From positions 682,781 through 746,780 of the forward strand of contig NZ_JAAOYW010000001.1 in NCBI RefSeq assembly GCF_011761235.1: 64,000 nt of DNA, written 5' to 3'. The notes beneath the pieces are model-generated. The model ran no database searches. It was not told the DNA's origin and saw only the letters and a list, made by a program, of their open reading frames with translations. This stretch comes from Frigoribacterium faeni. Its GTDB lineage: Bacteria; Actinomycetota; Actinomycetes; Actinomycetales; Microbacteriaceae. The position numbers and the translations under genes were made by a program. Shown here in pieces: positions 21,220 through 49,439 of the stretch (position 1 is the first letter of the stretch; each line of letters opens with the position of its first letter).

Positions 21220-21402
21220 GCTCGATCCTCTCTGGGAATCCTTGATCTGGCGGTTCCAGTATGCGACCATATTCGAGGTCGAAGTGACGCGTACGTCGTG
21301 GTGCGCGCCTCCCAATGATTCGAAGTCTTCTGGCTTTCTTCCCCCCATCCGGAACCTGGCGCTTCGCTGTGCCCGGTTCAGCATCCTAAGGAGTACCCAT
21401 CG

Positions 21403-21651
21403 ATGGATTGGCGTGACAAAGCCGCCTGCCTGACCGCTGACCCGGAGCTGTTCTTCCCTGTCGGCAACACGGGCCCCGCTGTCGACCAGATCGACAAGGC
21501 CAAGACCGTCTGCGGTCGGTGCACGGTGACCGAGACCTGCCTGCAGTACGCCCTCGAGACCAGCCAGGACTCGGGCGTGTGGGGCGGCCTCAGCGAGGAC
21601 GAGCGCCGCGCGCTCAAGCGCCGCGCCGCTCGCGCTCGTCGCGCCAGCTAG
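21403..21651 (+). CDS. whiB1: WhiB family redox-sensing transcription factor, WhiB1/WblE type
   Basis: Small Fe-S transcription factor that responds to O2/NO and, in mycobacteria, binds the primary sigma factor. The 82-residue protein has the four cluster ligands Cys9, Cys37, Cys40 and Cys46 (CGRCTVTETC), the turn GVWGG and a basic C-terminal tail (RRALKRRAARARR) for DNA binding. The short N-terminus and DPELFFPVGNTGPA are typical of WhiB1/WblE. ATG follows AAGGAG. The roughly 180-bp upstream spacer is AT-richer than its surroundings and may hold a long leader. It is convergent to pdtaS, as I recall for Rv3219-Rv3220c. Confidence 0.96.
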   Translation: MDWRDKAACLTADPELFFPVGNTGPAVDQIDKAKTVCGRCTVTETCLQYALETSQDSGVWGGLSEDERRALKRRAARARRAS

Positions 21652-48901: not shown

Positions 48902-49252
48902 TCAGGCCCGTTTGCGGAGCTTGCGGCGCTCGCGCTCGGACAGACCGCCCCAGATGCCGAACCGCTCGTCGTTCTGCAGCGCGTACTCGAGGCACTGGGC
49001 CCGCACGTCGCACGAGGCGCAGATCTTCTTGGCGTCGCGGGTCGATCCGCCCTTCTCGGGGAAGAACGCCTCGGGGTCGGTCTGCGCGCAGAGGGAGTCG
49101 GCCTGCCACGACAGCTGGACCTCGCCGTCCTCGCCGGACCGGCGGACACCGGGGACGCCCAGCAGGACCGGGTCCACGTGCCAGTCGTCCGGCACGCCTG
49201 CCCGGACGGGTGCGACGGGGTCTCGGTCGTCACGGCTCTCGTCGATCGCCAC
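48902..49252 (-). CDS. whiB2: WhiB family transcription factor, WhiB2/WhmD type
   Basis: Fe-S cluster regulator required for septation in mycobacteria and for sporulation septa in Streptomyces. The 116-residue protein has a 48-residue polar N-terminal extension, ligands Cys55, Cys78, Cys81 and Cys87, the turn GIWGG and a basic end RERRKLRKRA. This length and the WQADSLCAQTDPEAFFPEKGG segment mark WhiB2/WhmD. GTG start with GGGGAG at 9 bp. Its promoter carries a palindrome over the -10. Followed by a strong terminator. Confidence 0.95.
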   Translation of the reverse strand: MAIDESRDDRDPVAPVRAGVPDDWHVDPVLLGVPGVRRSGEDGEVQLSWQADSLCAQTDPEAFFPEKGGSTRDAKKICASCDVRAQCLEYALQNDERFGIWGGLSERERRKLRKRA

Positions 49253-49300: not shown

Positions 49301-49330
49301 AATTACACCGGTGTAGTTCGGCCACGTCAA
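49301..49330 (-). promoter_or_regulatory. whiB2 promoter with palindromic operator over the -10
   Basis: On the minus strand TTGACG (49325-49330) and TGTAAT (49302-49307) are 17 bp apart, a near-consensus sigma-70 promoter. A perfect 12-bp palindrome TACACCGGTGTA (49304-49315), extended to 16 of 18 matching at 49301-49318, covers the -10 and part of the spacer. This is where a repressor would act. Confidence 0.75.
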
Positions 49331-49439
49331 GTCGGACCCCATAAACCCTGCACCCCTCATCGAGGGTCAACCGGGCTCCGGCGTGTCGCGGAAGGTCGCG
49401 CGGACCCCCGTGACGGTCACCGAGGAGGCGCCGGCCGGG

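Follow-up and report, generated by a model that had tools for sequence, protein, structure and literature searches.

The whiB2 promoter and its inverted repeat

The window—the whole stretch of 64,000 nucleotides from Frigoribacterium faeni analysed here—carries on its minus strand a whiB2-type gene, the promoter of which is overlaid by an inverted repeat. The features of this locus are, in window coordinates:

48902–49252, minus strand: gene of a WhiB2-type regulator, 116 aa, GTG start (from PF02467 and relatives of solved structure)
49301–49318, minus strand: 18-bp operator AACTACA-CCGG-TGTAATT, an inverted repeat of McdR/ResR type, which contains the 12-bp palindrome at 49304–49315 (from 11/12 motif positions)
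49302–49307, minus strand: -10 element TGTAAT, making up most of the operator's right arm (from the sequence and the family alignment)
49325–49330, minus strand: -35 element TTGACG of the whiB2 promoter (from promoter conservation in the family)
49381–49388, minus strand: WhiA/WhiB2-type motif CGACACGC upstream of the whiB2 promoter (from the genus alignment and family counts)

The gene downstream of the promoter encodes a WhiB protein, as an earlier note on this DNA had claimed: its product matches PF02467 with an E value of 5.8e-27. The best relatives of solved structure are 8dy7 (E 5e-38) and 8dy9 (1e-37)—chains named 'Transcriptional regulator WhiB'—and WhiB4 (2e-15) and WhiB1 (4e-14) are far weaker matches. 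The gene is neighboured by galE-type and manA-type genes. Elsewhere in the window, a second WhiB-family gene is found at 21400–21627 on the plus strand, with 46% identity to WhiB2 over 71 residues.

The promoter proposed in the earlier note is confirmed on the minus strand, with TTGACG at 49330–49325, a spacer of 17 bp and TGTAAT at 49307–49302. The palindrome TACACCGGTGTA at 49304–49315 is indeed perfect over 12 bp, but it does not extend over the whole -10 as had been thought; it takes in the spacer's end together with four -10 bases, and complete cover of the -10 comes from the 18-bp repeat at 49301–49318. A perfect 12-bp palindrome alone is unremarkable in this window, which holds 78 of them, where 20 shuffles averaged 53. 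The AT-rich repeat at 49301–49318 is beyond chance: it shares 11 of the 12 fixed positions of the motif AATnACAnnnnTGTnATT, and the next best site in the 64 kb, like the best of the reversed control, reaches 8. In the whole genome, TTACANNNNTGTAA occurs with at most one mismatch at seven places (reversed control 0), and the 12-mer has a second exact copy, which adjoins a TetR gene.

Constant arms and a variable centre

Within the genus, ACACCGGTGTAATT is kept at the whiB2 promoter in 16 of 16 genomes. For the family, 97 of 100 genomes (84 genera) have a whiB2 match at E 1e-30 or better; 96 upstream regions were compared, with G027 left out as it lies at a contig edge. TTGAC followed by TGTAAT is present in 93 of these 96, with a spacer of either 17 bp (55) or 18 bp (38) and a gap of 7–8 bases between the -35 and the left arm. 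The dyad ACA-N4-TGTnAT is found in 94 of 96 upstreams (reversed control 0) and is missing in two; G111, G020 and G030 lack the TTGAC–TGTAAT pair as defined, and G020 and G030 still bear the dyad.

In the 93 aligned upstreams, the left arm reads A-A-Y-t-A-C-A, with A in 91, A in 83, T or C in 93, T in 65, A in 92, C in 93 and A in 93. The right arm T-G-T-A-A-T-T is identical in all 93 for its first six positions and carries the final T in 90. The four central bases and the flanks vary more than the arms: among the 94 dyads, CCGG occurs 26 times, CGGG 13 times and ACGG 12 times, besides others, and the centre is self-complementary in 26. Accordingly, the conservation in relatives on which the earlier note had made its palindrome depend splits in two—exact TACACCGGTGTA is present in no more than 25 of 96 family upstreams, the inverted repeat in 94—and the exact form ACACCGGTGT is present in 26. 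Hence, with arms conserved while the centre drifts, the operator is a split inverted repeat. The conserved object is the 18-bp inverted repeat AAnnACA-N4-TGTnATT, and the perfect palindromic centre in F. faeni is largely coincidence.

An operator of the McdR/ResR type

This inverted repeat was already plain in the family upstreams prior to its comparison with a published motif. Passages of PMC9040748 and PMC10336103 describe McdR (Rv1830, ResR), a regulator of the MerR family that represses whiB2 in mycobacteria via AATnACAnnnnTGTnATT. The columns AA..ACA....TGTAATT of the 93 aligned upstreams equal the arms and the spacing of this motif, from which the operator of F. faeni deviates at one arm position. 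In the mycobacterial operator, arm mutations or a changed spacer length abolish the effect and a changed spacer sequence does not (passages of PMC9040748); the drifting centre seen here fits this tolerance. The repeat thus shows AATnACA-N4-TGTnATT at its fixed spacing (11 of 12 positions in the window) and is placed at the whiB2 promoter where it could block RNA polymerase, since it overlaps the -10 and the spacer. The earlier note's proposal of a repressor operator at whiB2 is very well supported by arms and conservation; its idea of a regulator outside those known gives way to the match with the published McdR/ResR motif.

A candidate for the protein is at hand. Six MerR_1 matches are present in the genome of F. 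faeni, and the McdR-like gene among them (G000 C1:11419-11964) is preceded by a garA-like gene with an FHA domain and by a further merR gene; in M. tuberculosis the order is garA-merR-X-Rv1830. Within the family, 96 of 100 genomes have a match to the McdR-like gene; for the class the figure is 110 of 118, and the protein shows 58–76% identity to its best matches outside the family. The gene is a probable orthologue of mcdR by this identity, by its occurrence almost always as one copy, by its neighbouring genes and by the motif common to both systems.

The return arm of a feedback loop can be recognized as well. In mycobacteria, WhiB2 activates mcdR through cGACACGc (passages of PMC9040748). 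Upstream of the mcdR-like gene, CGACACG is present at the F. faeni locus and in 28 of 29 scored family loci (30 fetched from the 96 genomes), whereas loci of other families carry it in 12 of 29 cases and lack it in 17; the reversed control gave 0 of 58, and L350 and L396 were left out as their start could not be placed. Hence, with the whiB2 operator and CGACACG at mcdR, F. faeni has the two arms of the loop. A related motif is also found in front of whiB2: CGACACGCCG is invariant in the 16-genome genus alignment at the CGACACGC motif (49381–49388), and CGACACG occurs in 33 of 90 family whiB2 upstreams compared with 5 of 90 in the reversed control. A motif of the CGACACGC type is, however, not rare by itself, as the window holds seven copies of GCGTGTCG; autoregulation of whiB2 by WhiA/WhiB2 through CGACACGC is possible.

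We therefore read the palindrome as part of the operator of an McdR/ResR orthologue that represses whiB2, with WhiB2 and WhiA activating mcdR and closing the feedback loop—a reading to which we give a probability of roughly 0.9. An McdR dimer would grip the arms AAnnACA and TGTnATT at their fixed N4 spacing and would thereby cover the -10 together with the adjoining end of the spacer, excluding RNA polymerase from the whiB2 promoter. Rising WhiB2 would, together with WhiA, activate mcdR through the cGACACGc sites, and the raised McdR would shut whiB2 off again—a negative feedback that might limit the division regulator. McdR binding and whiB2 repression in F. faeni are carried over here from mycobacteria, and the role of WhiA from Streptomyces. 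By its sequence elements, this appears to be the known McdR–WhiB2 loop in another family.

Two registers and a possible relation to BldO

The likeness to the mycobacterial McdR/ResR system comprises identical arms, the N4 spacing, the target gene, the regulator family and the cGACACGc motif upstream of mcdR. A difference is the place of the dyad, which in F. faeni spans part of the spacer and the -10; the mycobacterial site is reported around the transcription start and not in the spacer (passages of PMC9040748 and PMC10336103). In family f6, which we infer to be mycobacteria-like, an intact dyad AATCACAnnnnTGTCATT lies 14 bp downstream of the F. faeni register, in agreement with the published site around the transcription start. 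On one and the same promoter, the operator thus seems able to take two registers that differ by 14 bp, which suggests a register shift.

At the class level, 46 whiB2 upstreams from outside the family were compared, taken from 105 such genomes with a match. An intact dyad is present in only 22 of these—in 18 in the upstream and in four in the downstream register—while 18 have neither dyad intact and six have no promoter by the search expression. In this tally, L217 is counted as an upstream dyad despite a script flag for the downstream one, and L268, among the six promoterless cases, holds a downstream repeat. Five of the six belong to family f20 (L262–L266) and stand apart by having neither a TTGAC–TGTAAT promoter nor the dyad within 500 bp of the whiB2 match. 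They do have the McdR-like gene; judged from sequence, the site may be lost, the gene start may lie further off, or the match may be a paralogue.

Three Streptomyces-like genomes show a third arrangement, with TGTAATTTCA between two overlapping, partly kept dyads. In Streptomyces venezuelae, the MerR-family protein BldO is a dedicated repressor of whiB that covers the -10 and the start; it is itself activated by WhiA/WhiB, and one target is reported (passages of PMC5485038). This is the same circuit as that of McdR and WhiB2. TGTAATTTCA fits the BldO sequence TGxAATTxCA published there, at the corresponding place and footprint, and the AATT common to the two overlapping dyads forms the middle of the BldO repeat. 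The BldO repeat as such is not conserved in the family of F. faeni, where, of 93 upstreams, 31 have the C and 11 the A of its last two positions; F. faeni itself has TGTAATTGGC, which departs from TGxAATTxCA. BldO may be the McdR of Streptomyces, and we found no report in the literature searched that names the two together. In the sole mcdR upstream read from family f21, GACAC was not found, which speaks either against the identity of BldO and McdR or against a site close to the gene.

Sites of the same design at other loci

The earlier note suggested a dedicated repressor; strictly dedicated it is not, as sites of the same design are found at other cell-cycle loci. The 13-mer ACACCGGTGTAAT is present in 40 of 100 family genomes (reversed control 0), with copies at whiB2 or between crgA and a rhomboid gene, and a few elsewhere. 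Downstream of crgA, at least 10 of 12 motif positions are matched in 79 of 97 regions, one per genome with a crgA match (reversed control 0); 18 are without a site. The dyad lies at a median of about 30 bp past the coding end, a distance counted from the stop codon or from where the protein match ends, which may be off by one codon. Among the 79 crgA dyads, TCCnCA follows within 14 bp in 72 and CTGTGGATAA within 44 bp in 56. A DnaA-like box is present in 69 of 97 crgA downstream regions (reversed control 0) and in 0 of 96 whiB2 upstreams. At L244:1490-1570, the F. faeni locus, for example, the dyad is followed by the DnaA-like boxes TATCCCCA...CCTGTGGATAACT between the converging crgA and rhomboid genes. 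As these two genes converge in the loci with flanks read, the element is no promoter for either.

The crgA element is not far from the start of the replication genes. Ten contigs begin with a dnaA-like gene (G021, G025, G029, G030, G039, G049, G061, G090, G103 and G106), and crgA is found 11 to 18 kb from this start in eight of them, 24 kb in G029 and 35 kb in G025. In F. faeni, the crgA element (C2:880329) is 12 kb from the dnaA–dnaN gap (892.3–892.8 kb), which is the likely oriC. A further dyad of this genome (C2:1015438, read in L002/L035:1500-1610) lies between TetR and PLDc_N genes and is accompanied by DnaA-like boxes, about 120 kb from the dnaA–dnaN gap; dyads like it are also seen in L227 and L243.

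Within the dnaA–dnaN gap of F. faeni (C2:892482, L456), AGTCACAAAGGTGTAGTT starts exactly 45 bases before the DnaA box TTATCCACA. Eleven gaps were compared—those of ten contigs (L446–L455) and that of F. faeni—and nine of them match 9 to 11 of 12 positions at exactly 45 bases from a TTATCCACA-like box. In eight of these nine sites ACA-N4-TGT is intact, the typical form being TCACA-N4-TGTAGTT, and the site of G049 has a changed arm; at the 45-bp spot, G025 scores 8 and G039 scores 4. When other distances from 20 to 80 bases were tested, matches appeared only at 49 (one genome) and 54 (six), the latter six being taken as the same sites seen from a second nearby box. For seven genomes with an oriC site scoring at least 10, the best match was reached by 0 to 4 of 200 shuffles; G049 was reached by 7 of 200 and G106 by 86 of 200, so that the score of G106 alone is not beyond shuffles.

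A third locus is nrdH, a gene of the glutaredoxin family named here by its context, for which 55 of 100 genomes have a match at the cut-off and 30 loci (L416–L445) were read. At least 10 of 12 positions are matched upstream of nrdH in 25 of 30 (reversed control 0), and the other five, that of F. faeni included, score 9. NrdR-like boxes are present in 14 of 30 of these upstreams, and DnaA-like boxes in 26 of 30, the latter counted with a broad pattern and without a control.

A search allowing mismatches also returned look-alike palindromes, namely TTACAACGATGTAA (L226, L228, L233, L236 and L238) and TTTACAGCGCTGTAAA (L231 and L235). By eye, they are flanked by genes resembling sugar ABC transporters and regulators of LacI type. 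They were not counted as McdR sites, being probably LacI operators, and are a sign that dyads of this kind may also serve a different protein.

Other readings of the whiB2 dyad

Could a regulator unrelated to McdR—BldD-like, LacI-like or a local TetR—own the operator in this family? We consider this improbable, although it fares best among the alternatives. LacI-family operators have an invariant central CG, whereas the centre of the 94 dyads varies, which speaks against this family. The formats of NrdR and CRP/FNR were weighed and set aside, and the earlier note was right that the site fits neither the LexA nor the MtrA consensus. A local TetR might be suggested by the second exact copy of the 12-mer next to a TetR gene, yet by eye no such gene was seen at the whiB2, crgA and nrdH sites with flanks read. 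BldD is a more natural suspect, since its half-sites TNAC and GTNA resemble the operator arms and whiB is one of its targets (passages of PMC4151990). The BldD box described there, however, has 5 bases between the half-sites and the present site has 6, so that the lack of a BldD match asserted in the earlier note is borne out. BldC, which recognises AATT direct repeats, is ruled out by the inverted repeat found here. A further point against any of these owners is that nearly every genome of the family has McdR, and nearly every whiB2 upstream the operator.

The second alternative accepts McdR but lets it act as MerR activators classically do, by twisting a spacer that is too long. Its membership in the MerR family and the overlap of the site with the spacer would suit such a role, which we nevertheless regard as very improbable: classical MerR promoters have a spacer of 19–20 bp (passages of PMC9040748), in which the dyad is centred, whereas the whiB2 spacer has 17 bp (55/93) or 18 bp (38/93) and the dyad has its centre near the -10; moreover, McdR was shown to repress whiB2 in mycobacteria (same passages). 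That the arms are mere promoter sequence and the palindrome a chance by-product without any repressor is scarcely credible, for even though the right arm is the -10 itself and 12-bp palindromes abound in the window, the left arm, at a place in the spacer that a sigma factor by itself would not require, keeps A-C-A in 92, 93 and 93 of 93, about as well as the -10 is kept, and the same dyad recurs downstream of crgA in those 79 genomes between converging genes that need no promoter there.

McdR as a possible coordinator of the cell cycle

An operator of McdR at whiB2 leaves the question of what the same design does elsewhere. McdR might also bind the DnaA-box-linked dyads at oriC, the crgA element and nrdH, and might thereby tune initiation and nucleotide supply with division. 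We hold this extension tentatively, at slightly less than even odds: the fixed 45-bp distance in oriC makes it more probable, and another protein could own the dyads outside whiB2. The crgA element invites comparison with datA and DARS, the DnaA-control sites of E. coli, as both are non-coding and combine DnaA boxes with a site of a second DNA-binding protein; they have no sequence in common with it, and a likeness in function would be by analogy alone.

In the literature searched, including the passages of PMC9040748 and PMC10336103, no report of McdR sites at oriC, crgA or nrdH was found, and where oriC is named together with McdR, it stands in a reference; DIP-seq of McdR gave five peaks, with three targets named in the passages, so that an oriC peak there is possible (passages of PMC9040748). 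Likewise, no report of an element with DnaA boxes at crgA in actinobacteria was found among the papers looked at, and in the passages of PMC6265350 both appear in the references alone.

The whiB2 operator itself belongs to a known kind, with its register shifted. Its meaning lies in placing the mycobacterial McdR–WhiB2 division checkpoint in a distant actinobacterial family, with the published cis elements present, and in the prospect that McdR and the BldO of Streptomyces may be one regulator. In M. smegmatis, overexpression of mcdR raised the origin-proximal copy number, a phenotype to which the passages of PMC9040748 assign no mechanism. The DnaA-box-linked sites offer a testable model: direct action of McdR at origin sites would, if true, explain this rise, and one repressor would link replication initiation, nucleotide supply and division.
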